Shown: piece by piece, positions 1,825 through 40,668 of the stretch
How the letters are laid out: each line of letters opens with the position of its first letter
How positions within the stretch are numbered: the first letter of the stretch is position 1
From: Roseibacillus ishigakijimensis
GTDB taxonomy: Bacteria; Verrucomicrobiota; Verrucomicrobiia; Verrucomicrobiales; Akkermansiaceae
DNA: 50,561 bases
Direction of reading: 5' to 3'
Assembly: GCF_016595415.1 (NCBI RefSeq)
Contig: NZ_JAENIO010000030.1
Coordinates: 1 to 50,561 of the forward strand
Program-made: the position numbers and the translations under genes
The notes under the pieces: model-generated
What the model was told of the DNA's origin: nothing
Databases searched by the model: none
The model's input: only the letters and a program-made list of their open reading frames with translations

Positions 1825-2054
1825 GGGCGGGTGGAGAAGTAAGCGGGGCAGCCCCTCTTTGGGAAGCGGGAAGATGGCGCTCTTTTCTTCCTTCCTTCGG
1901 CGGGCCTGCAACTGGGCAATTTGCGGGATTTAGCGGATTTTTCCGTGCATTTTGCCCGATAATGAAAGGAGGCTGCTGCGTTAAGGAGTGGACCTCAGGG
2001 GATCATTGGCTAGGCTGGGGTGGAATGCTTGCTGCGAACCCCCTGCGAACTGAT
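1825..2054. promoter_or_regulatory. Divergent intergenic region between MATE and trehalose genes
   Basis: The region separates the minus-strand MATE gene from the plus-strand trehalose operon and should hold both promoters. A GATAAT hexamer at 1958-1963 (5 of 6 matches to a -10 box, plus strand) is the best candidate for the trehalose operon. No convincing -35 box lies 16-18 bases upstream of it, so the assignment is weak. Confidence 0.3.
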
Positions 2055-20134: not shown

Positions 20135-20191
20135 CTTTTTCGGGGTTGCCGGCGGGGTCGTTTCCCGCTCTTTGCTACTTGTTTACTGCCA

Positions 20192-20229
20192 TCCGGACCG
20201 GAAATTACCCAAAAATCGGGATTTTTGGG
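20192..20229. promoter_or_regulatory. Two adjacent palindromes upstream of the PL1 gene
   Basis: TCCGG-A-CCGGA (20192-20202) is followed 5 bases later by perfect 10-base arms CCCAAAAATC (20208-20217) and GATTTTTGGG (20220-20229) with a 2-base centre. They lie 61 bases before the chosen PL1 start, a usual place for operators. The protein that would bind is unknown; the response regulator at 9907 is a candidate. Confidence 0.5.
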
Positions 20230-20289
20230 CCAGGGAAGAGGAGGGTTGGAGCTTGTCGGCCCCGGTTTCATTTGGCAGCTTGGCGAGTG

Positions 20290-21252
20290 ATGGAACAACA
20301 GACTTTTGGAAAAAATCGCCCCTTGGGAAGAGGAGGGGCCGTCCTTGTTTGTCTACTCGCGCTTGCTGGGGGACCGCTCTGGGCGGAGCTGCAGGCCGAC
20401 GGTTTTGCGGCTCTGGGAAAAGGCACTTCGGGAGGGGGAGAAGCCAGACCGGTCCGGGTGGCGGATGAGGCCTCTTTCCTCGCCGCGGTGAAAGGTCATG
20501 AGAAAAAGGTGATCCACGTCGCGGGTCCGATTGTTCTCAGTAAAAGTGTCTCTATCGGCTCCCACACCACTCTTTCCGGGGTGGCCGCGGATGCGGGCTT
20601 CTCGGGGGGGGCTTTCAAAATCCAAGGCGAGAACGTCATCGTGCAGGGGCTTAGCTTTGGGCCCGCGAAAGGCGACTTGATGGAGATTTCCGGGGCCCGC
20701 CGTGTTTTCGTGACCCAGTGCGATTTTCGCGATAGCAGTGACGAACTTTGTTCCATTGTGCGGGGGGCAGATCTGGTGACCATCTCCTGGTGCCGGTTTT
20801 TCTTCGAGAACCCGGATAGCCATTCTTTTGCGCATCTCATTGGCAATAGTGACAAGGCAACCGGGGATCGGGGCAAGTTACGGGTCACTCTCCATCACAA
20901 TTGGTACACGACCGGGGTGCGTGGACGGCAGCCCCGGGTTCGCTTTGGCCAAGTCCATCTCTACAACAATCTTTATGATTTTGCCGACACCGGCTACGCC
21001 ATTGGCACGGGCAAAGAGTGCCAGGTCCGCGTCGAAGCCACTCATTTCGCCGGAGTTCGCCAGGCGTGGAAGGACCACGGTGGCAGCAAGGATGGGCGTA
21101 TCGGCTGGCGGCACCTCAAGTTTTCACAAGGCTCGCATGAGCCCGGCTACATGGAAAATTCCTTTCCGGTCTTTGAGGTGCCTTACGAGTTCCAGCCCGA
21201 TCCGGTGGAGCGGGTTGCCGAAATCGTGCGCGAACGGGCGGGCCACCGCTAG
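20290..21252 (+). CDS. Pectate lyase, polysaccharide lyase family 1
   Basis: A 320-residue secreted beta-helix enzyme that cleaves polygalacturonate (pectate) by beta-elimination, normally using calcium. The N-terminus has a basic start, a hydrophobic core (GGAVLVCLLALAGGPLWAEL) and a plausible cleavage site. The beta-helix shows the usual PL1 progression: VIHVAGPIVLSKSVSIGSHT, TLSGVAADAGFSGGAFKI, VIVQGLSFGPAKGD, VTISWCRFFFE, and the signature VTLHHNWYTTGVRGRQPRVR, then FGQVHLYNNLY. The Arg of RQPRVR is the expected catalytic base region. The ATG at 20290 was chosen over the open frame to 20146 because the signal peptide follows it directly. With PL11 it forms a pectin-degrading pair. The stop overlaps that of convergent tag. 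Confidence 0.92.
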   Translation: MEQQTFGKNRPLGRGGAVLVCLLALAGGPLWAELQADGFAALGKGTSGGGEARPVRVADEASFLAAVKGHEKKVIHVAGPIVLSKSVSIGSHTTLSGVAADAGFSGGAFKIQGENVIVQGLSFGPAKGDLMEISGARRVFVTQCDFRDSSDELCSIVRGADLVTISWCRFFFENPDSHSFAHLIGNSDKATGDRGKLRVTLHHNWYTTGVRGRQPRVRFGQVHLYNNLYDFADTGYAIGTGKECQVRVEATHFAGVRQAWKDHGGSKDGRIGWRHLKFSQGSHEPGYMENSFPVFEVPYEFQPDPVERVAEIVRERAGHR

Positions 21253-25112: not shown

Positions 25113-28100
25113 ATGAAAATGCACGCTTGTTTACTGGCGAGTCTGGGGGGGCTCGTCCTTGGGGGAATGTCGGTCTTTGCCCAATCGCCGCCGGTGGCGG
25201 ACCCGGAGGTTTGGTTGCGAGCGGATTTGGGGGTGGTGGTCGATGGCTCTGGAGGCGTGGAGCGCTGGGAGGATCAGTCGGGGAATGGGCATCATTTCGA
25301 ACAGGCCAGTGAGGACAAGCGCCCGAGCGTGGCGACGAGGGGGCTGGTGCTGGCCGGGGGGCAGCTGGGCCGTGTTCCCCGCAACCTCAATGGCAGTTCA
25401 AATTATGGCGGCACCCTGGCCACCGATTTTGTGGTCGAGGAAGCGATCGAAGTCACCGAGTTGGGGATTTTCGACCAGGATGGCGACGGGCTGAGCGAAG
25501 ACATCACGGTTGCGATCTGGCAGCGTCTGGACAATGGCACTCCCGGGGATCCTTCTGATGATGCCGAGGGGGCCATTCTTTTGCAGGTGATTTTCACCCC
25601 TGCGGACTCCGGTTTGCTGGTGGGCCGGGAGCGTTGGAAGCCTCTGGCCAGTCCGCTCACCCTTGCTCCGGGCAATTACACCATCGGGGGCTGGGGCTAC
25701 GGGGGGCAGCGTTACCAGTATCTGAGCAATGACAGCGGTTGGCCCCGGCAAGCGGTGCGGCGGGTGGGGTCGCGCAACTCCGCCAGCAATGCGCCGGGGA
25801 GCTGGGGAACCAGTTTTTCGACGCTGGATGATCGCTACCTGAGTGCGGCCAATTTCCGCTTCCAGCTGGCAGGGGAGACTCCGGTCGAGCGGCCCGCTCT
25901 CCGCTTCGATGGGAGCAATGATGGTCTTCAAGCTGTCGAGACCCTGGCCCTGGGTCGGCCGGGCAGCGTTTTCGCCGTTTATGAGCGCGATTGGAATGAC
26001 AGCGGTTTTGTCCTCCAAAATAGCGCGGGCAATCATTGGTATCTGGACCACGATACCGCCTATGCCCTGGGTTCGGTGAGCCAGCGCAATCGCGACTGGC
26101 GGCAGCCCTGGCGGGTGGAGGTGGCCAGCCTTGCCAGTGAGACCCGGGCCTTTGTGCAAGGGGAGGACTGGACGGACAACCCCGCTCCCAACAATGCCGT
26201 CCCCGGTCGCCTGGCCTTGGGGGGCGGGGCCGGACGGTCCAATTCCCCGCTGGCGGTCCGCATCGCCGAGGTGCTGGTTTATGAGCGGGAGCTGACTGCC
26301 AGCGAGCGCTGGGAGGTGAATGCTTATTTGGCGGAACGCTACGAACCCACTCCTGTGGCGGTGGCCAACCCGGAAATCTCTCCGGCGGTGGCCGTGGGCA
26401 GCGGCCCGGTGGAGGTCACCCTCAGTTGTCCCACCCCGGGGGCGGAAATCCGCTACACCCTCGATGGCTCTGAACCCACGGCGGCAGACTCGCTCTACAG
26501 CGCTCCCTTCACTGTGGCCCGGGGCAGCGAGGTGCGGGCGCGCGCCTTTCTGGCTGATCATCCGGCGAGTGGAAGCGCGGCCCGCTATTATGAAGACAGT
26601 GCGGCGAGTGAAGTGCCGGTGGCCAATGCCGTGATGTGGCTGCGGGCGGGACTGGGAGTCGAGCGCGATGAAAAGGGGCTCATCCGCCGTTGGCAGGACC
26701 TGAGCGGCCACGGCAATGATCTCACCCAGGAGATTTCCGCGCTCCGTCCCACTTGGCGCGAGCGGGGAATGGAGGTTGGCCAGGGGCAGGCAATTGTGCC
26801 CTCCTCCCAATCGACCGCTGGGGGTCACAACTTCAATGGCACTCTGGGCATGGATTTTGTGGTGGATGAGGAAATTTCAGTCACTGAAATGTTGGCTTTT
26901 GACCATTTGGAGGATGGTTTTGCCTCCAGTGTGACGGTGGCTATTTGGTCGCGCAACGATGGGGGCACGACTCTCACCCCCCAAGACGATACGGCGGGGA
27001 GCTCTCTCATTGAAATGGAATTCACCCCGGCCGATCCCGGAATTCTCGGGGAAGGGGGTTTCCGCACCAAGGTATTGCCCGCTCCGGTGACCCTGCCTCC
27101 TGGCGATTACACTCTTCTGGCCTGGGGCTTCTCGGGCTCCAATCGGTATCACAACAGCTCCAATGGGAGTTGGAGCCGGGGGCAGGGGGTGGAGTTTGTC
27201 AATCGCTCCCGCAATGGCTCCGGGGCCGGGGCTTGGCCCACGACGATCGATTCCCATCCGGTGAAGTATGAGGCCTCGGGCAACTTTCGCTTTGTGCGCA
27301 GCGGGGCCTCGCCGACGTCCTACCCGACAGTGACCTTTGATGGCTCCAATGATGGCCTCATCGCCGTGGAGGGCTCGACCCTGCCCGCCGAGTCCACGGT
27401 CTTTACCGTCTACAATCGACGGGGGACGGACGCTGGCTATGTGCTGCAGAGTGCGACCAGCAATGATTGGTGGTTCTTGCGGGATGACGGGGCTTATCTG
27501 GATGGCTGGATCAACAATCGTGCCATCCCCCGGGGGCAGATCACGGTCGCTTCTTTGCGGATGACGGCGGGCGGCAGCGACTTTTTCATCAACAGCGACC
27601 TCTGGAATGAATTCTCCACCCGCACGGGAGCTCCCGGGCGCCTGACCCTCGGGGGCGGGGAAGGGCACTCCATCGATCCTCTCTGGGTTGATGTCGCCGA
27701 GGTGGTGGCCTTTGAGCGCGCGCTCTCCGAGGATGAGCGGCTGCAGGTGGAGAACTGGCTGCGCACCCGTTACACGGGCAGCGACCCCGTGGTGCCGGCG
27801 GTGGTCTTTTCTCCTCGCGGGAATTACGGAACGGGCGCGGTCACGGTGGGCCTGGAGGCTCCCCTGACGGGCACGGAAATCCGCTTCACGACCGACGGCA
27901 GCGAGCCTGATGCGGGCAGCAATCTCTACGCCGGGCCGCTCACCGTCGCTCGCGGCACTCTTCTCCGCGCGCGCGCTTACTTGGGCGGGGTGGCCGGTCC
28001 CCTCGGCGAGGAGTTCTACGGTGAGGAGAGTGCTCTGGAGCTGCCCGTGGCGGGAGCGCGCATGTGGTTGCGCTCTGATCGGGGACTGACCTTGGATGCG

Positions 28101-31100
28101 AACGAGGGCGTCGTGGAGTGGCAGGATTTGACCGGAAACGGCAATCATGTGCGACAGGGCATTGCCGAGCTGCGCCCGCACTGGCACCCGCAGGGCTTGC
28201 GGGGGGAGGAAGGCCTGATTCAGGGCACCGGTGCGCCCGGCAACCGGAATTATGGCGGGAGTCTGGGCGAGGACTTCACTGTTTCCGAGGCCGTCGAGGT
28301 CACGCATCTGGGGGCCTTCGATCATTTGGGTGATGGCTTCTCCGGCACCATCACGGTGGAGCTTTGGTCCCGTGACGACCAAGGCACAGCCAGCCGGAGC
28401 GACGATAGCGGGACAACTCTTTTGGCGAGCGAAACCTTCACTGCGGCCGCTCCCGGCGAGTTGGTAAAGACCCAACAGCGGCTCAAGGCTCTCGCCAGTC
28501 CCGTGACCCTGCCGCCCGGTCACTACACCGTCTTTGCTTGGGGCTATACGGGAGGGGACCTCTATTACGAAGGTGGGGGGGCCACGACTCTTTCCGATGA
28601 CAGACTGGCTTTCACGGGGGCGATCTACCACGGCACGGGCGGGATGTTCCCTTCCATCGTCGATGGGGGGGGCGCTCTGGACTACCACGGGGCCGCCAAT
28701 TTCCGGATTTTGCCCGAGGGCGAAAGTTCGGCCGTCCCGGCCCTGGTCTTCGATGGCGTGAATGATGTCTTGCAGGGGGGGGAGGAGATGGATTTCGGGC
28801 GTCCCTCCACCGTGCTGGTGGTCTTTGAACTGGATCGCGAGGACTCCGGTGATGTCTTGCAGAATACCAGCGGCTTCAATTGGTCGATTGACCGGGGCGG
28901 CTACTATGTGAATGGCTGGGTGCGGGACGAGAACTTCGCGCTCCAGCAGCCCACTCTCGCTGCGATGGTCAATGGACCGGATTTCACCACGGCCTGGCGC
29001 AACGGGCAGGAGGTGACGACCAACCGATCGCTGGCCAGTGCCAATCCCGGGCGCCTTCTTCTCGGAGGAGGGGAAAATGGCGTTTCGACCAATCCTCTCG
29101 CCGTGCGTATCTCGGAATTGCTGGTCTACGACCGGGTCCTCGATGAGACCGAGATGAATGAGATTTCCAACTATCTCGCCGCTCGCAATGGCCTCTATCA
29201 GCCCAAGGCTGAAATTCCTGAAATCGGGCCGCTGGCGGGCTATGGCACGGGGTCGGTGGAGGTCGATCTTTCTTCCGTCACCCCGGGGGTGGAGATTCGC
29301 TACACCTTGGATGGCAGTGAGCCGACGGCTTCCTCAGCCCTCTACGCCGGACCTTTTTCGGTCCCCCGGGGCACGCTGGTGCGCGCGCGGGCTTTCGGTC
29401 CCGGTCTGGCGGCCAGTCCCATTGCGGAGAGCTTCTTCGGCGATCTGGCCGCCCATCCTCTCCCGGTCACCGATCCCGCTCTTTGGCTGCGAGCCGATGT
29501 GGGGGTGGAATTGGATGAAGCGGGCCGGGTGGAGCGCTGGCGAGACTTGTCGGGATTCGGCCGCGATGCCTCCCAAGTGTCTTCCGAGCGAGCACCGGTG
29601 CGGGAGAGAAGCCAGTTTGGAGGTCAAGGACAGTCCCGGATTCTTGCCCCTTATTCCGCGGCAACCGCGCCTCATACCTACAATGGTTTCCTCGCTGCCG
29701 ATTTTCAGGTCGATGAACCGGTCGAGGTCACCCACCTGGGAGCGATGGACTCCGATGGCGACGGTATCGCCGGGTCTATTACCGTGCGCCTCTTCCGCAT
29801 GGATGACGGGGGAACCAGCGGAAATAGCAGTGGCGATCGGGCGGATGATACGCTGGGGGAAGAGTTGGCCGCGATGACCTTTACCAATGCTGAGCCGGGA
29901 GTGCTGGAGGAAGGGGTGCGCCTCCGTCCTTTGGCTGCTCCCGTGTTGCTGGAACCGGGGACTTATACCCTTTACGCCACGGGTTATGTGGGGGCGGACA
30001 GATATCTCAGCCAGGATTTGAATAACCAGCCCCAGCACTTTGGCATCACTTATCTCAATCGCAGTCGCTACTCTGTTCTCGAAGAAGATTTGTTCCCGGG
30101 CATCCCGGTGAATGATGATCGTTATCTCATGATGGCGAATGCCAAGTTCCGCCCGGCGGGCTTCGACCAGACCGCGCCAGCGACCGACGTGGTGGTTTTC
30201 GACGGTATAAATGATGGCTTGCTCGGTCCGGATGATTTTCTGGTCGAAAGACCCTCCACCATTTTCCTTGTCTTTGAACAACGGGAGGGAAGATCGGGTC
30301 GCCTGCTGCAAAGTGGCAGTGGCGCGAACTGGCTCCTGGGCACCTATTCTTCAAACCGTCATGGCTATTATGCCAACGGCTGGGTCTACCTGGATAGCTT
30401 CTTCCTCGGTCAACCTGCTTTGGCCATCGCTGAGCAAGGAGAGTCGGTGAGCCGCTACTTCCTCAATGGTTATCAGCTAGCGGAGACCCCCAATATCCTG
30501 GGAAATCTCGGTCGCGTGGCTCTGGGGGGAGGGGAAGGAACCTACAGTGGTGAGACGGGCAATACCGCGCTGGCCGAGGTTCTCATCTATGATCGGGTCT
30601 TGACCCCGGGAGAACGGCAGGAGGTCTCCCGCTATCTCTCGCACAAGCACGGACTGGCCGCCCAGTCCCTGCCCGAGCCGACCATGAGCCCGCTGGGGGG
30701 ACTCTATGCCTCCAGCCAGAGTGTGACCCTGACCCCGGCGGTAGCGGGCGCGGAGGTGCGTTACACTCTGGATGGCTCCGAGCCTGATGAGAGTTCGGCC
30801 CTCTACACCGGCAGCTTGACCGTCTCGGCAGACACCGTGGTCAAAGCCCGCTCGTATCTGGCGGGTTACCGGCCCAGCCCGGTGAGCGAAGGGATTTTTT
30901 ACATCGATTCCTCCGCTCCCGAGCCTCCTTCCCGAGCCGACATGCTTCTCTGGTTGAGTGCCGCGAAAGGTATCGAGAGCGATGGCGCGGGAGTCTCACG
31001 CTGGCGCGATCTTTCCGGTCAAGGAGCCGACGCGCTGGCTCTGGAGGTGAGCCAATCTCCCCAACTCGAGCCTGCCGCAATCGGCTCGGGGCCGGGCGTG

Positions 31101-34100
31101 GTCTTCGATGGTGTGGACGATCATCTTTCTCTGGCCCCCGGATACGAGGACTTTAGTCGGGGAGTGACGGCGATCTTCGTCTTCAATCCCGATGAGAACC
31201 TGACCAGGTGGGGGCGCTTGCTGGAGCTCGGACAGGGACAGAATAACGACAATTTGATTTTTGCTCGCAACGGCACGACCACCGATTTTGCTTACATCAC
31301 TCGGGTGGGAGGTGCGTGGGATGAGCTGGTCGCTCCCAATGCCTTCCGCTCCGAAACCGCGCAAATCCTCACCGTGGTGCAGGCTCCGGATGGTCAAACG
31401 CGCATCTTCCGTAATGGTAATCTGGAAGTGGAGGAGGCCGTCAACATGCCCTCCAATGTTCTGCGGCACCTCAACTATTTGGCCCGGAGTAACTGGGTTT
31501 CCGATCAGTATTATTCCGGTGCGATCGGGGAAGTGATTCTTTATCAGTCTGCTCTTGATGATTTTGAGCGGGAAAACTTTGAAGCCGAGATTCGCGCAAA
31601 CTATGGCATCGCCAGTTCCGCGACCGGGATCGTGGGGATTTCTCCCGATAGCTCGCCTCTTTATCCCTCGGGAGTGACCGTCACGCTGCAAAGCAGCACG
31701 CCGGGAGCGACCATCTATTACACCCTGGATGGCTCCGTGCCGGATGAAAGCGCGACTGCTTATGCGGCCCCCTTCACTCTCACGGGGTCCGCGCGGGTGC
31801 GGGCCCGGGCCTTTGCCGCCGGGCTGAATCCAAGCAACCTCTCGGAAGCCACCTACCTCGTGGGTGATCCGCCGGGAGGGGGGGACGGCTTGCTGGGCAC
31901 CTACTACAACAACGATGACTTCACCGGTTCTTCGTTGGTGCGCCTGGATCCCAATGTCGACTTCAACTGGGGAAGTGGCAGTCCGGATCCGGCCATCGAC
32001 CCCGACTCCTTTTCGGTGCGCTGGACGGGAAAAATTCTCGCCCGCTTCACGGAGGATTACATTTTCTCCACGCGGGACGATGGCTCGCGCCTGCGCATTG
32101 ACCTCAATCAGAACGGCACTTTTGAGGACGAAAGCGAGCTCCTCATCGATGAGTTGGATTCCTCCAGCCTCGTCGAGCGGTTCGCCGCCCCGGTGTCGCT
32201 GGTGGCTGGTGAACTCTACGATATCGAGCTGGAGTATGTGGAGGAAACCAGCACGGCTTTCATGAGTTTCCGTTGGCAATCCTTCAGCGAACCCTTTGCC
32301 CCCGTCCCGCAAAGCCAGCTCTTCAGCAATGCCGAGTTCACTCAGACCGTGAGCACCCCAGTCATCTCTCCCGCCGGAGGCACCTATACTGAGGCCGTTG
32401 AAGTGACCATTGCCACCGCGACGGAGAACGCCACTCTCTACTACACCGCTGATGGCACCGACCCCGATGAAACTTCTGCCGTGTATACCGGACCCTTTAT
32501 GGTGGCGGCAGATTCCGAAGTGCGGGCTCGCGCTTACAAGGCGGGCTTCAATCCCTCGGGCGTGGCCAGCGAGTTCTACGATATCGATGCCCAGCCGCCG
32601 CTGATCACCTCTTTTGATTGGAACGGCAGTCCGCTCCTCGGCGGGGAAGTCTTTGCGGCCACGGGCGAGCTTTCGGTGACCGCGACAGACAACCAGGGGG
32701 TGGCCAGCGCCGAGTTCTTCTACCGGCCTGTGGCGGGCACGAGCCGGGTGCTGCTCGGGCGCGATACCAGTGTCGGCAACGGTTTGCGCAGCAGTTGGAA
32801 TGTTGGCAATCTTTCCGATGGTTCCTATGAACTTATTGTCAGGGTCTACGACACGGCGGGGACCTACTCGGAGGAAAGCCTCACTATCTCCATTGCGCTG
32901 GCTCCGCTGCCTGCCCCGAGCATCACCCAGCCGCTTGATGGACTGGAGGTCGAGGTGCCTACCGTGAGCCTGCGAGTCGAGTCGCAGCCTTCAGCCAATG
33001 TCCGCATCCGGCGCGACGGGGTGTTGATTTTCTCGGGCTATACCAATTCCTCCGGGGTGCTCACTTACCATGCCACCTTGCCCACCGGCCTGAGTTCCTT
33101 TGTGGCCACCGCCGTCAACCGGGCGGGCAGCAGCGCTGATTCCAATATCGTCTCGGTCACGCGGGTGCGCGAGTTTCCCCAGCTCACTCTTAGCTTTCCG
33201 GATAATACCTTGGTGGAAGGCATGCCCATGCGGGGCACGCTTTCTCTCCCCACGGCCGCTCCCGAGGAGGTGACGGTCAGCCTCCGCACCACTCATGCAG
33301 GGGAAATTCAAAGCCTTCCCTTGGTGACCATTCCGCTGGGGGCTTCCAGCGTGGAGTTTGATTTCGTTCCCATTCAAGATTCGCGGGTGGAGGCCCCGCT
33401 GAACCTGCAGGTGACGGCGACCGCCCTGAATCACCGCGATGGCGTCGCCAGCTTGCTCTTGCTGGATGATGACACCCCGGTGCTCACTTTGGAAGTGGAC
33501 GAGACCACGGTCTCCGAGGGCGCGGGCACCGTGACCGCGCGCGTGCGACGGGGCAGTGCGACCGGATTGGCCCAATTGGTCTACCTGAGCAATTCCGCGC
33601 CCGATCAAGCGAGCGTGCCAACTTCGGTCACGATTCCAGCCGGGGCGACCGAGATTGGCTTTGTGGTCAATGTGAATGACGATTTGCTGGCAGACGGCAA
33701 TCAAATGGTGGACCTGCAGGCCAGTGTGCGCGTGGGTAATCAGGTGGTTTCCACCTCCGCGGTGGTGAGCTTGGAAGTGCGTGATAACGAGGGGCCTTCC
33801 TTGACCCTGATTTCCAATGCGAGTTTGCTCAATGAAGGCAGTCTCAATACTTTCACTCTGCGTCGTTCGGGAATCTCTACGGCCCAAGCGGTGACCGCGA
33901 CCTTGACCCAGATGCCGGAGGGCGAGATCAATTCTCCGGCGACCCTCACCATCCCGGCTGGAGCGGAGGAAGCGACTTTCACCGTCACGGCTCTGGAGAG
34001 CGCCGCCAGCGGGACCCGCAACGTCATTCTGCGGGCGGCTGCGACAGGGTATACCGATGGCTTGGCGCGCTTTGCGGTCACCGATGTGCTCTTGCCTGAT

Positions 34101-37100
34101 TTGGCTGTTGATCGTTTAACGGCTCCCTTGACCGCGCGCACGGAGTCGACCATCGCGGTCGATTACCGGGTGCGTAATCTCGGGCTGGCCGACTTGCGCG
34201 AGACCACCTTTTTGGAGCGGGTTTACCTCTCGCTGGACCCGTCGCCCAGCGGGGATGATGTGTTGGTTCGCCAGGTCGAGCAGAGTGGGGATATTTTGGC
34301 CGGGGGAAGTTATTCCCGCAGTGTTTCCCTCTTTGTGCCTCGCGAGGTGGGGACCTATTATCTCATCGCCACCCTCGACCCGGTCAATGCGGTGGCGGAG
34401 GTTCTGGAGACCAACAACACCACGGTGCGGGCGATTCCCCTGGAGGTCACTGCTGCCTACTCGGCGGTGGTCTCGGCGCATGAGACCGTGATCCCGGCCA
34501 ACACCCCGATTGAGTTCACTGGCTCCGCCACGAAGGGGGATGGCTCGGCGGCAGCCAATGCCATGGTCAATATCCACATCGGGCGGGGGGATTCCGAGCG
34601 TGTCATCTCCGCCTTTACAAACTCGGTGGGTCAGTTTGCCACAACCTGGACTCCGCTCCCCAACGAGGGTGGCTCCTACACCATCGGCGCGACCCATCCC
34701 GGGACGTCCGTTGCCCCGGTGCAGGATGCCTTCGATATCTTGACCATTGGGTTCGATCGGCCTCCCCCGGTGCGCTTGGACGAAGGAGAAACGGTGGTGG
34801 TGGAGACCATCCTGCGCAATCCCAACAATGTCGATCTCACCGGAGTTTCCGTGGCGGTGATAGGTGATGTGCCGAGCGGGTTGACCATCGCTCCCATGGT
34901 CCCGAATACCACTTTGGCCGCCGGAGCAGAGATGACGGTTGCCCTTTCAGTTTCGGCCGCCAGTGGTTTCTCCGGCAGCGGGCAGTTTGGGCTCGAGGTG
35001 ACCACCGCAGAGGGGGTGGCCCGTGGGCAACGTTTCTCCATCCAAGCCGATTTGCTTGTTCCGGCGCTGAGCTTTGTGCCGTCCAGCTTGAATGCCTCGG
35101 TGTTGCGAGGGGGCTCGAAGGTGGTGAACCTGCAGGTGACCAATACCGGAGGTTTGGCGACGGGTGCGGTGCAAGTGCTCTTACCAGAGGTTTCTTGGAT
35201 CAGCTTGACCTCTCCGGCCGTCATTTCCAATTTGGCCCCTGGAGAAACCACTTCCGTCGATATCCTGTTGGCCCCCGGCGTGGATGTTCCCCTCAATCTT
35301 TATTCGGGAACCCTCGTCCTCCGGCCTGAGAATGGACGGGACCGATCAGTCTCCTACCGCTTCCGCGTCGTCTCCGATTTGACGGGTGACTTGGCAATCG
35401 AAGTGGTGGACGAACTCTACTACTTCACCGAAGCTGCTCCCAAGCTGGAGGGGGCCAAGGTGACGGTGCGGGATGCGATTTCTTCCTCGCAAGTGGCCTC
35501 CGCGACGACTGGAGTCGATGGGCTGGCCCTCTTCGAGGACTTGCCGGAAGGCTGGTATCGCGTGGAGGTGAATGCTCCCGAGCACGATCGCTTTTCGGGC
35601 AATTATTATGTCAGTGCCGAAGAGGTCAGAACGGAGCAGATTTTCATTTCCAAGCAGTTGGTCAAGGTGTCCTGGACGGTGGAAGAAGTGGAGATCGAGG
35701 ATGTCTATCGCATCAAAATCGAGACCACTTTCGAGACCAATGTGCCTGCCCCCGTGGTAGTGGCCTCTCCCAACCGCTTTGACGTCGAGGATTTGGTTGC
35801 CCTGGGTCAATCCAAGGTCGTCAATGTCACCTTGACCAATGAGGGTTTCATTGCCGCGCAGGAGTCGGCCTTCCGCTTCACGGATCATCCCTTCTACAAG
35901 TTCCAACCCTTGGTGGAGAATATTGGCACCATCCCTGCCAAGTCCTCGCTGGTGGTGCCCGTGACGATCACGCGGGTGGGAGTCTTCGGGGAGGATGGTT
36001 CGGTGGTGACCCTGGACAAGGCGGGTAAAAACAAAGGACTGGAAACCGCCAAAGGTCTGCCGAAGTCGACGAGCGTGCCTTGCAATGCTGCTGGAGCCGT
36101 GGACTACAGCTATCCGTGTGGACCCCACTTGGTGGACAAGGTGGTCGCCCTCGTCGTCAGTGGCGTGCAGGGCAACTGCGGGGGAGCGGGAGGAGGTTCA
36201 GGGGGCTATTACGGCTTCGTCGGCTGGTTTGGCGGGGGAGGTGGTGGCGGCGGCGGCGGTGGCGGGGGACCAGGGATTTCCTCGAATAGTTTCAGCTCTC
36301 CCGACCCCTGCACGCCTCTTTGCATTGCCCGGGCGACCTTGGATTGTCTGGTGGGGTTCACTCCTCTGGGATGCCCTTATGCAATCGCCAACTGTATCGC
36401 TTCAGAGGGTGATCCCCTGACTTGCGCAGGAGCAGCCTTTTGTTGGGCTGGTCCGGTGGCCAATAGCCTGTTTTGTGTGGGAGGCTACATCAATTGCTAC
36501 ATCAATTCTCTTAACTCTTCTTCTGCCAAATCCTTTCCCAGTGGTGAAAAATCGGCCGGGGCAGTGCTTTTCTCGGAAGAGCAACGGAATTTTGATCCGG
36601 CCGTGGCATCTGCATTCGATCGACTGAATACGATCCTCGATATGCAAGAGGTGATTCTTGGCTCCGCCGATAGGGTCCTGTTGCAACGGGAAGCTCGCTA
36701 CAAGGGCTGGTTCGAAGCCATGGGAGCCGCCAGCTCCAACGGGAGTCCTGGAGATCGAGTTATCACGGCCGATGAGCAAGCCGACCTGGCCAATATCGTG
36801 GCTTCCGAGGGCCTTGATGCGGCTGAGACTGATGCCATCATTGCCCGGTGGAACCGGACCATGAATTATTGGGAGGAGGGGGTCTTGGAAGTAGAGGATG
36901 TTCCTTCCGGTCAGAGTGTGGACTTCATTCCTCTCAGTGATTGGCAGGCCGCATCGGCTCTGGTGATTGATGCCTATGCGGTCAGTCAGACCAAAGGATA
37001 CTTGGACCCCTTCGAGGAATTTGTAGATGCCTTTGGCGATTTGCGGGAAGCGCTGGAAGGGGGACAGGGAGGCACCTGTGCCACCGTCAAAATCGAGCTG

Positions 37101-39911
37101 AGTCAAGATTTGATGCTCACGCGCACCGCCTTCGAAGCGAGCCTGGTGCTCGAAAACGAAAGAGAGGATAGCACGGTCTCCAATATTTCCTTCGAGATGA
37201 TCATTCGCGATGAAAGCGGACAGCCGGCCGATGATCTTTTCAATATTCAGGATCCGGAATTGACCGGCCTGTCCGCAGTGGATGGCACTGGTGAGATTGC
37301 GGTGGCCAGCACGGGACGGGCCCGCTGGACCTTGATTCCGCGGGATACTGCGGCGTTGGAAGAAGAGCGCATCTACACGGTGGGTGGAGTGGTGACCTAT
37401 GTGCAAAATGGCACCGAGTTCACCATCCCGCTTGAGAATGTGCCCATCACCGTGCGTCCGGATGCGTCCCTTTCCTTGAAATATTTCCATCAGCGCGATG
37501 TCTTCAGTGACGATCCGCACACCGATGCCATCGAGCCCGCCATCCCTTACAAGCTGGCCGTCCTGGTGGAAAACAGCGGCTATGGCACCGCGCGGGACCT
37601 GAAGATCATTTCCGGCCAACCGGAAATTGTGGAGAATGAGAAAGGGCTCTTCATCGACTTCAAGGTCATCGCCACTCAAGTTGACGGCCAATCGGTGACT
37701 CCTTCCCTGACGGCCAATTTTGGTGACTTGGGGCCCCAGGAGAGCTCGGTGGCCACTTGGTTCCTGACCTCCACACTGCAAGGTCTCTTCATTGACTACG
37801 AAGCCACCTTCGAGCACGTGACGGGTCTCGGCGACGAGCGCATCTCTTTGCTGCAAAATGTGGAAATTCACGAGATGATTCGCTTGATTGAGGCCAAGGA
37901 CGGTTCTCCGGCCTTCCTCGTCAACGACGTCGTGGATGTGAACGATTACCCGGATACCATCCATTTCGAGAATGGCGACATTGAGCTCGTCACCGTTCAG
38001 GAGAGTGGCACCGTGACGGGGAGCCTGGGAGGGGGGAACCTGACGGTGACCCTCGACACCGGAGCCTTCACCGGATGGTCTTACCTGCGCATTCCCGACC
38101 CAGGGGATGGGGCCTATCGCTTGGTGGGGGTGACTCGCCAGGATAACGCTGTTTTGCCCTTGGATTTCAATGCCTGGACCAGCGACCGAACTTTCATTGG
38201 CCGGGGCCGTCGTCCCGTTTACGAGAACATTTTGCATCTGGTGGACTGCGATAGCCCGGGGCAATACACCTTGCGCTATGAGGTCGATCCGGAGGCCGAT
38301 TCGCTGCCTCCCAGCAGCGCTGTCACCGCCTTGCCAGCGACGAGTTCCGCCAATATCCCCGTGGTCTGGAGTGGCACCGACAACGTGGGAATCGCTCTCT
38401 ACGACATCTATGTCTCGACCAACGGAGGTCCTTGGACCCGCTGGAAGAGCAAGACGACCGCGACCGGAGCCGTTTATCCCGGCACCGTAGGGGAGACTTA
38501 TTCCTTCTACTCCATTGCGCTGGATGCGGCGGGGAATCAGGAAAGCAAAAGTCCCGTGGGGGAGGCGACTACGGAGGTGGTTGATGACAATCAGCCGCCC
38601 GTTCTCACCGCCATCGCGGATCAGACCATTCAAGAAGGAGAAACCTTCTCACTGCAAGCGAGAGCGACCGATCCTGATGGTAGTGCGAGCGATATCCGCT
38701 ACTCGGTGGGCTCCTCGGCCACGGGGGTGACCATTGATCCTGTCACGGGCCAAATGCGCTGGGTGACGGGCGAGAACTCGGGTGGCACCGTGGTGACCGT
38801 CGTGGTGGTGGCGAGGGATGCCAATGAACCTGCCGGGGTGGCCAATGAGGAGTTCACCATCACCGTGCAGGAGGTCAATAGTGCCCCGATTCTCAGCCAG
38901 GTCCCTCCCCAGACCATCGCGGCGGGGGGGCTCATGCTTGTGGGCTTCACTGCCAGCGATGGCGATTTGCCGACCCAGGCTCTGAGCTTCTCGCTGCTCG
39001 ATTCCCCTGCTGGAGCCGGCATCGATGCCGCAACTGGAGTGCTCTCCTGGAGTCCCGCCAATGGCGATGCCGGTCGGAGCCATGTCTTCACCGTGGCGGT
39101 GACTGATAGTGGCATCCCGGCCCGGACCGCGCAGACGAGCTTCTCGGTGACTGTGCCCGAGCTGGAGAGTGATTTGCCACCGGTCTTTACCACCTTGCCG
39201 GTTCTCCTTTGGCTGGAAGGCCGTAGTTACACCTTCGAGGTGATGGCGAGTGATCCCGATGGCGACGCGGTCGCGCTGAGTGCCAACCTTACCGGGGCTC
39301 CGGGGGCGAGCTTCTCCGACTTGGGCGCCGGGACCGGGCGGGTGAGCTGGGACACCACGGGAGTGGCCGCCCAGAGCTATCTCATCCCCTTGACGGCCAC
39401 CGCGAACGGGCTCTCGACCAATGGGCAACTGCAGATTCGAGTGGAGGAGGAAGACCTCTACTGGTCTTGGGCGAGCGAGATGTTCGGGGAGGTCCTGCCT
39501 GCGGGAATCACGGAGGCCGACCTCGCACTGGAGGCTAATCCTGATGGCGATGGACGGGCGAATGTGCATGAGATGGCGCTTCTCACCCATCCGCTCAAGG
39601 ATGACGAGCCTCCCATTGCTATCCAACTCCTGAACCAAGAAGGCTTCCGGGTCGTTCAGGTCAGCCTGCATCGCCGCAAGGGATCCGAGGATTATGTCCG
39701 TCTCGCTCCCCAGCGCAGCGATGATTTGCAGGGTCCTTGGCAGGCCATTCCCTCCTATGACTACGGAGCTGATCTTGATCGGAATGGCGATGATGACTCT
39801 CGCCCCGAGACCGAGTCGGTGGATTTCTCCATCTTCCAATTCGGGGCTGAAGAAGACTGGGATCCGCGCGAATTCTTCCGCATCCAGTCGACTGTGATTC
39901 CTGCCAACTAG
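25113..39911 (+). CDS. Giant secreted multidomain protein (LamG/chitobiase-C modules, PA14, Calx-beta, CARDB, cadherin-like)
   Basis: A single uninterrupted frame of 4,932 codons. Signal peptide: MHACLLASLGGLVLGGMSVF, cleaved near AQS. Approximate residue order: four modules (26-1935) of LamG-like fold with an inserted beta domain and a chitobiase C-terminal-type domain (IRYTLDGSEP); a shorter fifth (1936-2250); PA14 (GLLGTYYNNDDFTGSSLV, 2256-2406); a sixth chitobiase-C copy (2414-2490); Ig-like domains; three Calx-beta-like domains (2691-2990); CARDB (2994-3115); Ig/NEW3-like domains to 3410; a carboxypeptidase-regulatory-like region; a Gly/Cys-rich stretch (3653-3803); an unrecognised block (3816-4393); fibronectin-like (4397-4490) and cadherin/Ig-like domains to 4780. 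No catalytic domain, LPXTG or PEP-CTERM is seen. It is probably an extracellular glycan-binding or adhesive fibre (inference). The ATG at 25113 was chosen for the signal peptide; 25119 is possible. Confidence 0.9.
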   Translation: MKMHACLLASLGGLVLGGMSVFAQSPPVADPEVWLRADLGVVVDGSGGVERWEDQSGNGHHFEQASEDKRPSVATRGLVLAGGQLGRVPRNLNGSSNYGGTLATDFVVEEAIEVTELGIFDQDGDGLSEDITVAIWQRLDNGTPGDPSDDAEGAILLQVIFTPADSGLLVGRERWKPLASPLTLAPGNYTIGGWGYGGQRYQYLSNDSGWPRQAVRRVGSRNSASNAPGSWGTSFSTLDDRYLSAANFRFQLAGETPVERPALRFDGSNDGLQAVETLALGRPGSVFAVYERDWNDSGFVLQNSAGNHWYLDHDTAYALGSVSQRNRDWRQPWRVEVASLASETRAFVQGEDWTDNPAPNNAVPGRLALGGGAGRSNSPLAVRIAEVLVYERELTASERWEVNAYLAERYEPTPVAVANPEISPAVAVGSGPVEVTLSCPTPGAEIRYTLDGSEPTAADSLYSAPFTVARGSEVRARAFLADHPASGSAARYYEDSAASEVPVANAVMWLRAGLGVERDEKGLIRRWQDLSGHGNDLTQEISALRPTWRERGMEVGQGQAIVPSSQSTAGGHNFNGTLGMDFVVDEEISVTEMLAFDHLEDGFASSVTVAIWSRNDGGTTLTPQDDTAGSSLIEMEFTPADPGILGEGGFRTKVLPAPVTLPPGDYTLLAWGFSGSNRYHNSSNGSWSRGQGVEFVNRSRNGSGAGAWPTTIDSHPVKYEASGNFRFVRSGASPTSYPTVTFDGSNDGLIAVEGSTLPAESTVFTVYNRRGTDAGYVLQSATSNDWWFLRDDGAYLDGWINNRAIPRGQITVASLRMTAGGSDFFINSDLWNEFSTRTGAPGRLTLGGGEGHSIDPLWVDVAEVVAFERALSEDERLQVENWLRTRYTGSDPVVPAVVFSPRGNYGTGAVTVGLEAPLTGTEIRFTTDGSEPDAGSNLYAGPLTVARGTLLRARAYLGGVAGPLGEEFYGEESALELPVAGARMWLRSDRGLTLDANEGVVEWQDLTGNGNHVRQGIAELRPHWHPQGLRGEEGLIQGTGAPGNRNYGGSLGEDFTVSEAVEVTHLGAFDHLGDGFSGTITVELWSRDDQGTASRSDDSGTTLLASETFTAAAPGELVKTQQRLKALASPVTLPPGHYTVFAWGYTGGDLYYEGGGATTLSDDRLAFTGAIYHGTGGMFPSIVDGGGALDYHGAANFRILPEGESSAVPALVFDGVNDVLQGGEEMDFGRPSTVLVVFELDREDSGDVLQNTSGFNWSIDRGGYYVNGWVRDENFALQQPTLAAMVNGPDFTTAWRNGQEVTTNRSLASANPGRLLLGGGENGVSTNPLAVRISELLVYDRVLDETEMNEISNYLAARNGLYQPKAEIPEIGPLAGYGTGSVEVDLSSVTPGVEIRYTLDGSEPTASSALYAGPFSVPRGTLVRARAFGPGLAASPIAESFFGDLAAHPLPVTDPALWLRADVGVELDEAGRVERWRDLSGFGRDASQVSSERAPVRERSQFGGQGQSRILAPYSAATAPHTYNGFLAADFQVDEPVEVTHLGAMDSDGDGIAGSITVRLFRMDDGGTSGNSSGDRADDTLGEELAAMTFTNAEPGVLEEGVRLRPLAAPVLLEPGTYTLYATGYVGADRYLSQDLNNQPQHFGITYLNRSRYSVLEEDLFPGIPVNDDRYLMMANAKFRPAGFDQTAPATDVVVFDGINDGLLGPDDFLVERPSTIFLVFEQREGRSGRLLQSGSGANWLLGTYSSNRHGYYANGWVYLDSFFLGQPALAIAEQGESVSRYFLNGYQLAETPNILGNLGRVALGGGEGTYSGETGNTALAEVLIYDRVLTPGERQEVSRYLSHKHGLAAQSLPEPTMSPLGGLYASSQSVTLTPAVAGAEVRYTLDGSEPDESSALYTGSLTVSADTVVKARSYLAGYRPSPVSEGIFYIDSSAPEPPSRADMLLWLSAAKGIESDGAGVSRWRDLSGQGADALALEVSQSPQLEPAAIGSGPGVVFDGVDDHLSLAPGYEDFSRGVTAIFVFNPDENLTRWGRLLELGQGQNNDNLIFARNGTTTDFAYITRVGGAWDELVAPNAFRSETAQILTVVQAPDGQTRIFRNGNLEVEEAVNMPSNVLRHLNYLARSNWVSDQYYSGAIGEVILYQSALDDFERENFEAEIRANYGIASSATGIVGISPDSSPLYPSGVTVTLQSSTPGATIYYTLDGSVPDESATAYAAPFTLTGSARVRARAFAAGLNPSNLSEATYLVGDPPGGGDGLLGTYYNNDDFTGSSLVRLDPNVDFNWGSGSPDPAIDPDSFSVRWTGKILARFTEDYIFSTRDDGSRLRIDLNQNGTFEDESELLIDELDSSSLVERFAAPVSLVAGELYDIELEYVEETSTAFMSFRWQSFSEPFAPVPQSQLFSNAEFTQTVSTPVISPAGGTYTEAVEVTIATATENATLYYTADGTDPDETSAVYTGPFMVAADSEVRARAYKAGFNPSGVASEFYDIDAQPPLITSFDWNGSPLLGGEVFAATGELSVTATDNQGVASAEFFYRPVAGTSRVLLGRDTSVGNGLRSSWNVGNLSDGSYELIVRVYDTAGTYSEESLTISIALAPLPAPSITQPLDGLEVEVPTVSLRVESQPSANVRIRRDGVLIFSGYTNSSGVLTYHATLPTGLSSFVATAVNRAGSSADSNIVSVTRVREFPQLTLSFPDNTLVEGMPMRGTLSLPTAAPEEVTVSLRTTHAGEIQSLPLVTIPLGASSVEFDFVPIQDSRVEAPLNLQVTATALNHRDGVASLLLLDDDTPVLTLEVDETTVSEGAGTVTARVRRGSATGLAQLVYLSNSAPDQASVPTSVTIPAGATEIGFVVNVNDDLLADGNQMVDLQASVRVGNQVVSTSAVVSLEVRDNEGPSLTLISNASLLNEGSLNTFTLRRSGISTAQAVTATLTQMPEGEINSPATLTIPAGAEEATFTVTALESAASGTRNVILRAAATGYTDGLARFAVTDVLLPDLAVDRLTAPLTARTESTIAVDYRVRNLGLADLRETTFLERVYLSLDPSPSGDDVLVRQVEQSGDILAGGSYSRSVSLFVPREVGTYYLIATLDPVNAVAEVLETNNTTVRAIPLEVTAAYSAVVSAHETVIPANTPIEFTGSATKGDGSAAANAMVNIHIGRGDSERVISAFTNSVGQFATTWTPLPNEGGSYTIGATHPGTSVAPVQDAFDILTIGFDRPPPVRLDEGETVVVETILRNPNNVDLTGVSVAVIGDVPSGLTIAPMVPNTTLAAGAEMTVALSVSAASGFSGSGQFGLEVTTAEGVARGQRFSIQADLLVPALSFVPSSLNASVLRGGSKVVNLQVTNTGGLATGAVQVLLPEVSWISLTSPAVISNLAPGETTSVDILLAPGVDVPLNLYSGTLVLRPENGRDRSVSYRFRVVSDLTGDLAIEVVDELYYFTEAAPKLEGAKVTVRDAISSSQVASATTGVDGLALFEDLPEGWYRVEVNAPEHDRFSGNYYVSAEEVRTEQIFISKQLVKVSWTVEEVEIEDVYRIKIETTFETNVPAPVVVASPNRFDVEDLVALGQSKVVNVTLTNEGFIAAQESAFRFTDHPFYKFQPLVENIGTIPAKSSLVVPVTITRVGVFGEDGSVVTLDKAGKNKGLETAKGLPKSTSVPCNAAGAVDYSYPCGPHLVDKVVALVVSGVQGNCGGAGGGSGGYYGFVGWFGGGGGGGGGGGGGPGISSNSFSSPDPCTPLCIARATLDCLVGFTPLGCPYAIANCIASEGDPLTCAGAAFCWAGPVANSLFCVGGYINCYINSLNSSSAKSFPSGEKSAGAVLFSEEQRNFDPAVASAFDRLNTILDMQEVILGSADRVLLQREARYKGWFEAMGAASSNGSPGDRVITADEQADLANIVASEGLDAAETDAIIARWNRTMNYWEEGVLEVEDVPSGQSVDFIPLSDWQAASALVIDAYAVSQTKGYLDPFEEFVDAFGDLREALEGGQGGTCATVKIELSQDLMLTRTAFEASLVLENEREDSTVSNISFEMIIRDESGQPADDLFNIQDPELTGLSAVDGTGEIAVASTGRARWTLIPRDTAALEEERIYTVGGVVTYVQNGTEFTIPLENVPITVRPDASLSLKYFHQRDVFSDDPHTDAIEPAIPYKLAVLVENSGYGTARDLKIISGQPEIVENEKGLFIDFKVIATQVDGQSVTPSLTANFGDLGPQESSVATWFLTSTLQGLFIDYEATFEHVTGLGDERISLLQNVEIHEMIRLIEAKDGSPAFLVNDVVDVNDYPDTIHFENGDIELVTVQESGTVTGSLGGGNLTVTLDTGAFTGWSYLRIPDPGDGAYRLVGVTRQDNAVLPLDFNAWTSDRTFIGRGRRPVYENILHLVDCDSPGQYTLRYEVDPEADSLPPSSAVTALPATSSANIPVVWSGTDNVGIALYDIYVSTNGGPWTRWKSKTTATGAVYPGTVGETYSFYSIALDAAGNQESKSPVGEATTEVVDDNQPPVLTAIADQTIQEGETFSLQARATDPDGSASDIRYSVGSSATGVTIDPVTGQMRWVTGENSGGTVVTVVVVARDANEPAGVANEEFTITVQEVNSAPILSQVPPQTIAAGGLMLVGFTASDGDLPTQALSFSLLDSPAGAGIDAATGVLSWSPANGDAGRSHVFTVAVTDSGIPARTAQTSFSVTVPELESDLPPVFTTLPVLLWLEGRSYTFEVMASDPDGDAVALSANLTGAPGASFSDLGAGTGRVSWDTTGVAAQSYLIPLTATANGLSTNGQLQIRVEEEDLYWSWASEMFGEVLPAGITEADLALEANPDGDGRANVHEMALLTHPLKDDEPPIAIQLLNQEGFRVVQVSLHRRKGSEDYVRLAPQRSDDLQGPWQAIPSYDYGADLDRNGDDDSRPETESVDFSIFQFGAEEDWDPREFFRIQSTVIPAN
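25189..30918 (+). repeat. Four tandem ~1.42-kb modules in the giant gene
   Basis: Four successive units start near 25189, 26610, 28038 and 29455, with lengths of about 1421, 1428, 1417 and 1464 bases. Each opens with a VWLRADLGV-like LamG strand (VWLRADLGVVVD, MWLRAGLGVERD, MWLRSDRGLTLD, LWLRADVGVELD). Each then has a W-(E/Q/R)-D-x-(S/T)-G-x-G motif and an inserted domain ending in a PGxYT strand, and closes with IRYTLDGSEP or a close variant. Sequences have diverged, so the duplications are not recent. A fifth unit (about 30919-31860) lacks the inserted domain. Confidence 0.85.
36231..36269 (+). repeat. Thirteen consecutive glycine codons
   Basis: Codons GGC, GGG, GGA and GGT in mixed order encode 13 glycines followed by Pro, in the Gly/Cys-rich centre of the giant protein. 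Mixed codon use argues that protein-level flexibility is selected and that this is not a simple slippage tract. The frame stays open through it. Confidence 0.9.
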
Positions 39912-39933: not shown

Positions 39934-40668
39934 ATGAAAACACCCCTCCTCTTGCTCACCGTTCTGTTGTTACTACCCGTTCTTTCGGCTCAGGAATCGC
40001 CGAGGTGGCTTGTGCCCGAACGCCAGGCCGGGGGGATTGCCCTTCTCGGTTCGGCCGGGGAACCGGTCACCACGGCGGTGCTGGATGTCGGGCAAGGGCA
40101 GTATCTCAGTGGGGATTTCCTCGCCACTTCTCTGGTTGCTTCCCGTTGGCAGGGAGCAGATGCCCTTCCTGTGGGCGGGGGGGTGGTCGGGATGGGGCTC
40201 CGTGTCGCGCCCAGTGCCGGGGTCGCTGCCTGGACCTTGACCATGGATGTCTCGCGTCCTGGCGAGTGGTTTCTGGTCGTGGGCGGGCTCTTTCGCGATG
40301 ATTCTTTCGCCCACGGCCCGATTGAGATTCTCGCTTCTTCCGCTGCCGGGACCGTGCCCCTCACCTTTTTGGGGAGTGGCACTTGGAATGACGGCGTTTC
40401 GCACTTGACCGGGGCCTTGGATTGGGATGCGGGCACGGGGAGTCTCTCTCCGGCAGTCGGCAATCAGGGTGATTCCGGTCTCGCCTTCTTCTCTCTTTCT
40501 AATGAGACGGGGGAGGTGGAATCCCTCGCTCTTTCGATTGCCCAAGGGTTTCCGCAGGGCGCGGGAGATGAGATTTTCGTCGCCGTCGGCTTCGAGCCCA
40601 TTCCCGAGCCTTCCGTGATTGCTCTCATCGCACTTGGCCTCGGCAGCTTGTGGCGGCGGGTGCGGTGA
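39934..40668 (+). CDS. PEP-CTERM sorting domain protein
   Basis: A 244-residue exported protein. It has a signal peptide (MKTPLLLLTVLLLLPVLSAQ), a beta-rich body without a recognised domain, and a C-terminal tripartite sorting signal: PEP motif, hydrophobic helix and basic tail (PEPSVIALIALGLGSLWRRV). Such signals are processed by exosortase and place proteins on the surface or in extracellular polysaccharide matrix. No exosortase gene is in the window, so it must lie elsewhere. The ATG is 22 bases after the giant gene's stop on the same strand, with no terminator between, so cotranscription is likely. It may help anchor or assemble the giant protein, but this is inference. Confidence 0.88.
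   Translation: MKTPLLLLTVLLLLPVLSAQESPRWLVPERQAGGIALLGSAGEPVTTAVLDVGQGQYLSGDFLATSLVASRWQGADALPVGGGVVGMGLRVAPSAGVAAWTLTMDVSRPGEWFLVVGGLFRDDSFAHGPIEILASSAAGTVPLTFLGSGTWNDGVSHLTGALDWDAGTGSLSPAVGNQGDSGLAFFSLSNETGEVESLALSIAQGFPQGAGDEIFVAVGFEPIPEPSVIALIALGLGSLWRRVR

Follow-up and report, generated by a model that had tools for sequence, protein, structure and literature searches.

The window, that is, the whole 50,561-nt stretch of DNA analyzed here, corresponds to contig 116 of a draft genome (4.14 Mb, 192 contigs, 95% complete), which falls in the same genus as genome G001 in the kinship tables. It contains a giant gene consisting of a single open frame that runs from ATG to stop without any undetermined base and encodes 4,932 residues, and both its coordinates and its length are exactly those assigned by an earlier sequence-only reading (Table 1). 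The gene occupies 14,799 of the 50,561 bases, and the measured share of 29% agrees with the “nearly 30%” given in that reading. Base composition by codon position was coding-like all along the gene, and translation might begin further upstream, at an in-frame TTG (25062). Judged by eye, the N-terminus, MKMHACLLASLGGLVLGGMSVFAQSPP, resembles a signal peptide.

A draft of 192 contigs leaves some room for the giant being an assembly error, a frameshifted gene or a gene that is not expressed. However, this is extremely improbable given the intact full-length orthologues: six complete orthologous genes (the window giant, L040, L041, L142, L144 and L151), with open frames of 4,932 (from the window ATG) to 5,125 residues, have the same architecture, and one of them sits in a single-contig genome. 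Repeat collapse is not expected, as the identity of modules 2, 3 and 4 to module 1 is just 41%, 44% and 37%, respectively. An assembly artefact within the modules, on which the sequence-only reading had agreed to give up its claim, is therefore very unlikely.

Table 1. Features of the giant gene and its downstream partner in the window (residues refer to the encoded protein in question).
Feature	Position	Strand	Basis
Giant secreted protein (predicted), 4,932 aa	25113..39911	+	frame; six complete orthologous genes
Probable signal peptide, residues 1-24	25113..25184	+	judged by eye from sequence
Module 1: LamG with nested insert, then chitobiase-C	25188..26585	+	own profiles, model, fold
Nested insert of module 1, residues 95-254	25395..25874	+	own profiles; free-standing relatives L033, L034, L036
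Module 2, plan as module 1	26613..28013	+	own profiles, module tree
Nested insert of module 2, residues 570-731	26820..27305	+	own profiles
Module 3, plan as module 1	28041..29435	+	own profiles, module tree
Nested insert of module 3, residues 1044-1203	28242..28721	+	own profiles
Module 4, plan as module 1	29460..30893	+	own profiles, module tree
Nested insert of module 4, residues 1519-1683	29667..30161	+	own profiles
Module 5: LamG without insert, then chitobiase-C	30930..31850	+	own profiles, module tree
PA14 domain, residues 2258-2390	31884..32282	+	PF07691 3e-16
Sixth chitobiase-C domain, residues 2420-2485	32370..32567	+	PF13290
Front chassis, residues 2503-3630: Ig-like, Calx-like, CARDB, NEW3-like, CarboxypepD_reg-like, WTV segment	32619..36002	+	Pfam and own profiles
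Hinge, residues 3631-3984, Cys/Gly-rich, insertion place in relatives	36003..37064	+	composition; comparison of relatives
VKIE segment, residues 3985-4395, separate gene in some relatives	37065..38297	+	profiles, tree, model
Fn3-like and three He_PIG-type domains, residues 4396-4780	38298..39452	+	He_PIG PF05345 5.3e-07; own profiles
C-terminal domain, residues 4784-4932	39462..39908	+	present in relatives having the partner
Partner, 244-aa protein with PEP-CTERM tail	39934..40668	+	profile matches, alignment, gene neighbourhood
PEP-CTERM tail of partner, residues 223-243	40600..40662	+	TIGR02595 16.9 bits, cut-off 16

Pfam scanning of the giant returned chitobiase-C (PF13290) in six stretches (1.6e-94), which confirms the six domains of this type noticed from the sequence, as well as Fn3_assoc (PF13287), also in six stretches, and Laminin_G_3 (PF13385) in four (57.7 bits against a cut-off of 27.6). 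PA14, CARDB and He_PIG each scored above cut-off, and CarboxypepD_reg scored below. NCBIfam gave three matches, all far under their cut-offs, and no catalytic family was above cut-off in either collection, in keeping with the absence of visible catalysis reported before; neither dockerin nor cohesin was found by Pfam. With a length above 5 kb, repeated binding domains and no enzyme domain, the gene has features by which giant-adhesin genes are recognized.

Whole-protein self-BLAST of the giant produced the full-length match only, and self-comparison with 300-residue tiles revealed the repeats. Direct repeats are spaced 1431, 1416 and 1461 nt, followed by 957 nt to the fifth module, so that the four modules of near-constant length (~1.42 kb) were found as described. 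The fifth module had been taken as truncated; it is instead a LamG plus chitobiase-C unit without the ~160-residue domain that is nested in modules 1 to 4. Similarly, the earlier count of about 20 domains is too low, as segmentation gives ~34 when each LamG is counted once and with borders chosen by the analyst. Other proteins (L033, L034 and L036) have the insert domain but no LamG with it; it adjoins lamin-tail domains in L033 and bacterial TSP3 repeats in L036. Its likeness to DUF4082 stays below cut-off: inserts 1 and 3 of the window gave no match, and the relatives in L033 and L036 scored 16.9 and 13.6 bits, respectively, against a cut-off of 28.4.

The structure of module 1, predicted from 34 module sequences with a pLDDT of 91.1 and a pTM of 0.87, showed a ConA-like/LamG lectin jelly-roll fold both by Foldseek and on a second look. 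Its best fold match was 9vyh (Z 19.9, rmsd 2.4 over 195); 50 entries were listed with Z of 15.5 to 19.9, and Z was at least 8 in 414 of 984 chains. In the top rows, the alignments spanned model residues 1 to ~386 of 466 with at most ~210 aligned, and so few aligned residues over such a long span would be explained by the interruption of the fold by the insert. The LamG part of the model has its fold in common with other ConA-like lectin domains and with AbnA domain 4 bound to arabinotriose (5hon_A, Z 18.8, rmsd 2.6 over 181); the identity to AbnA domain 4 is 15%, and the window module differs from it by the nested domain. The fold lists also include clostridial neurotoxin binding domains, which were read as the common ConA-like lectin fold and no more. 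Alignment of the modules against PDB sequences gave two matches, both to the chitobiase-C part. The lectin fold of the model, together with the lack of a catalytic family, supports the earlier suggestion of an extracellular, non-enzymatic and adhesin-like protein. ConA-like folds also act as spacers.

The array of four modules with and one without the insert (4+1) was found in all six complete orthologous genes, which span at least two genera in the kinship tables and more by record names, and likewise in a seventh gene, L143, that is cut by a contig end. In a tree of 46 modules from 9 proteins, the modules grouped by position, with supports of 100/99, 100/94, 100/99 and 99/95 for modules 1, 2, 3 and 5, respectively, and of 94/91, just short of the star level, for module 4. 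This indicates that the array dates to the common ancestor of the seven genes and has not been homogenized since; that is, on the evidence of the module sequences, the 4+1 array is a trait fixed in the common ancestor of the orthologous genes. Exceptions exist. The paralogue L145 (= L055), a second copy in the L144 genome, has 3+1 modules, which is consistent in the module tree with the loss of module 2 alone, and L042 has three modules with and four without the insert, its modules 1 to 3 lying outside the positional groups. Thus, of the length-defined fibre or adhesin proposed earlier, the fixed geometry stands for the orthologous genes, and the fibre would be a further step from it.

At a threshold of 1e-5, the module query matched 34 of 58 related genomes, the best-covered matches being confined to G000, G001, G003 and G037 and the others arising mainly via chitobiase-C or insert regions. 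This indicates that lectin-type pieces alone are common and not diagnostic.

Comparison with relatives further indicates that the lectin array is the head only, and that the ~2,400 residues after it form a chassis, non-catalytic and widely shared (the names VKIE, WTV, Calx-like, NEW3-like and the other “-like” labels were coined in this analysis). VKIE relatives were collected as the best 80 of 388 genome-contig stretches plus one from a viral collection, and as far as each of these 81 loci reaches, the segment order was Calx-like, CARDB, Ig-like, NEW3-like, CarboxypepD_reg-like, WTV, hinge, VKIE, Fn3-like and He_PIG. VKIE was present in 81, Fn3-like in 74, WTV in 72 and CARDB in 62 of these 81 best-matching loci; LamG was found in six and the insert in five, with many frames cut by the locus end. 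Among the 32 loci closed on the 5′ side, of which L077, L116 and L131 start at or near the hinge and are uninformative on heads, just one (L102) carries LamG. These distributions suggest that heads vary while the chassis stays, and, as most chassis bearers have no lectins, lectin adhesion cannot be the general chassis role. The records are mostly labelled Verrucomicrobiota and some Planctomycetota, and further ones come from Nostoc and Aphanothece (cyanobacterial, two records), a Kiritimatiellota isolate and a bin labelled Bacteroidetes. Within the order, the VKIE alignment matched 14 of 141 genomes, two of them via the Fn3-like end alone, and the front chassis was found patchily, in 13 of 141. 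Behind the chassis, the Nostoc member (L125:11219-14752) has a subtilase, Calx-beta and RTX repeats; the Pirellulales member (L122:11237-15166) has FG-GAP repeats and a weak dockerin match.

Of the 15 cysteines in the mature window protein, 12 lie in the hinge. In the 83 hinges for which both borders were found, nine duplicate records included, cysteine amounts to 3.4% compared with 0.55% in the whole set; after removal of the duplicates, the pattern C-x9-13-C-x15-21-C was present in the first part of the hinge in 69 of 74 and a Gly run of at least five in 40 of 74. Phase variation via the Gly run was considered and found no support, since the tract consists of GGN codons and whole-unit slippage would stay in frame.

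In some relatives the hinge place is filled differently and the chassis is split over two genes. The front chassis gene of L049 (L049:5342-9502) has RHS repeats there (PF05593, 1.5e-84, 14 stretches), and hinge starts and gene splits near-identical to it were found in two further genomes, L147 and L148, with open fronts of 6,672 and 6,669 aa, the Pfam scan for RHS among these three being that of L049. The hinge place of L048 (L048:4552-5508) gave a weak PT-HINT match (1.2e-4, 22.8 bits, below the cut-off of 27.7). In all four, VKIE is the gene next to the front gene; it stands alone in L149 and L131, where no front gene was seen alongside, the L131 copy lying on a viral-collection contig. The separate VKIE genes start with stretches that look signal-like by eye. 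Overlapping frames near the hinge in L077 and L116 were not counted as true splits; those of L116 hold one undetermined residue, and the frame changes could be sequencing error or real. The RHS-bearing and Hint-like forms point to a reading in which the chassis is an RHS-type carrier, with the hinge as cargo site and the cargo of the window member reduced to a Cys/Gly plug. We regard this as quite improbable. Pfam found no RHS repeats in the giant, and in its hinge scanned alone no RHS, Hint or toxin-like family. Moreover, in an unrooted tree of 71 VKIE sequences, one 100/100 branch splits the six separate from the 65 fused ones, which indicates that the RHS form is one distant lineage; L131 has a long branch and odd composition in this tree. 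The VKIE model was of good quality (pLDDT 92.4, pTM 0.85), but in the fold search the best match reached Z 8.2 (102 residues) and many others tied near 7, for which reason no family is named; VKIE against PDB sequences gave a single chance-level match (E 0.24).

The partner gene, which lies beyond the span covered by the earlier reading, starts 22 nt after the stop codon of the giant. The C-termini of all eight aligned partner proteins consist of PEP followed by a hydrophobic stretch and arginines, and TIGR02595 is passed by three of the eight (window, L040 and L046) and missed by five; PF07589 is below cut-off in both proteins scored (18.9 bits for the window partner, cut-off 20.7). In Pfam and NCBIfam no family above cut-off was found for the partner ectodomain, and a PDB sequence match to YehD at E 0.032 was not used. 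A partner homologue lies directly 3′ of the giant in L040, L041, L142, L144 and L151 (in L151 cut by the locus end) and also behind the lectin-free relatives L046, L056 and L058, the partners of L056 and L058 being detected by a profile that was not seeded with them. In R. persicicus the family is present twice, as a giant with (L041) and a giant without (L046) a lectin head, and behind each lies a separate PEP-CTERM partner. The paralogue L145 has the C-terminal domain and no adjoining partner. Of 82 loci counted, 66 extend at least 900 nt downstream; eight of these have both C-terminal domain and partner, one the domain alone, none the partner alone and 57 neither (Fisher 1.6e-9, which is descriptive only, the sequences being related and non-independent). 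In 58 related genomes, with up to 45 candidates scored per genome, a partner search gave five strong matches, all adjoining a giant, four weak matches over the tail or little more, and no further full-length homologue; as the five strong matches are themselves rows of the query alignment, what is new from the search is the lack of other full-length members. An exosortase is present in the window genome (PF09721, 9.3e-31, 107.6 bits, cut-off 25.7). These associations suggest that the partner may be a dedicated anchor of the giant, which would account for a giant C-terminus without visible sorting signal.

To our knowledge, the role of most PEP-CTERM proteins is poorly known. The PEP-CTERM/exosortase system has reportedly been linked to exopolysaccharide, and this, along with the long chain of Ig-like domains, would also suit a structural component of the matrix or cell coat, for which length and elasticity matter and whose lectins bind the exopolysaccharide of the cell itself. 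Such a role is unlikely in our estimate, the patchy occurrence of the front chassis within the order being odd for a basic coat protein.

The surroundings of the giant bear on a feeding role. Upstream of it by ~4-12 kb, the window has genes for a rhamnogalacturonan lyase (RGL11) and a pectate lyase (13546-15348 and 20146-21252), with DUF1501 and PSD1 genes lying between them. Given these genes and the resemblance of the module fold to the arabinan-binding domain of AbnA, the lectins could keep pectin- or arabinan-like polymers close to enzymes that the cell secretes, in a polysaccharide-capturing scaffold whose gain is degradation and not attachment. However, in R. persicicus, which shares the order DUF2059-ilvH-ilvB-giant-partner-recR-rpoD-dnaG-VWA with the window, no homologue of the pectin genes was found within ~19 kb beyond DUF2059, and in JB023, Haloferula and L151 none was found in the stretches read around the giant, where the partner alone of the neighbours in the window recurs. 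In the relatives read, the pectin genes thus do not accompany the giant, and a link of the giant to pectin was dropped. As the giant is also devoid of dockerin, cohesin and any catalytic family, we hold the feeding scaffold to be unlikely, too.

We therefore lean slightly towards the giant being a secreted, non-catalytic glycan adhesin of fixed valency that an exosortase-sorted PEP-CTERM partner keeps at the envelope. In this scheme, the signal peptide would export a chain of ~4,900 residues, the N-terminal head of which would display five LamG lectin modules, four of them enclosing another domain within the fold, along with spacers of PA14 and chitobiase-C type; their number and order appear to have been fixed since the common ancestor. 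The head would be carried away from the cell by a long series of domains, most of them beta-sandwiches, which is interrupted by a disulfide-capable hinge. The giant, which has no recognizable anchor of its own, would be held at the envelope by the partner, probably via its C-terminal domain. A broader version, which we consider doubtful, would see in the whole family a modular surface machine: heads would be exchanged on a constant, non-catalytic chassis, the hinge would be a plug-in site (Cys/Gly plug, RHS repeats or Hint-like domain) at which the chain is encoded by one or two genes, and an exosortase-sorted protein would serve as dedicated anchor. The hinge of the fused form might then be processed or disulfide-locked, the giant acting as a two-chain complex.

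Giant surface proteins with carbohydrate-binding domains are already known (PMC5177795, PMC10066038, PMC12863079). The giant genes of planctomycetes (PMC5177795) and Giant1-5 of Apilactobacillus kunkeei (PMC12863079) likewise concern very large proteins with a predicted surface or secreted location, and roles in adhesion or carbohydrate binding have been proposed for them; the A. kunkeei giants start with a beta-solenoid, unlike the window giant, and the accessible parts of both reports describe no fixed LamG array, window-type chassis or PEP-CTERM neighbour. Some giant ORFs of Omnitrophota contain laminin_G_3 and have been proposed to act in adhesion, as in the window, but that report presents them as poorly conserved or with few annotated domains, whereas order and number are conserved in the window giant (PMC10066038). 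The probable PEP-CTERM tail of the neighbour and the exosortase of the genome match the known sorting system as outlined in PMC4960237. The partner departs from that system in its ectodomain without family match and in being kept behind one giant family. Among RHS/YD-repeat proteins, the distant relative L049 combines the same front chassis with RHS repeats at the hinge, and the window giant has none. In the open-access literature searched, no description of the giant architecture or of the giant-partner pair was found, nor any paper combining giant proteins, LamG and Verrucomicrobia; a term search of the main text of PMC13174399 returned none of “giant”, “LamG”, “adhesin” and “PEP-CTERM”. The conserved giant and PEP-CTERM pair offers a concrete two-gene hypothesis, adhesin plus anchor, in cultured species; the fixed array turns the question of why there are this many lectins into a testable one; and the common chassis joins lectin-bearing and RHS-bearing giants in one family.

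Two minor observations concern the same genome. On contig 122, a 1,458-residue open frame (L050) has two LamG-like stretches and a trace of the C-terminal domain of the giant. Within the window, at 1962-6112, a trehalose-phosphate synthase/phosphatase gene overlaps a GH15-family gene by four bases.
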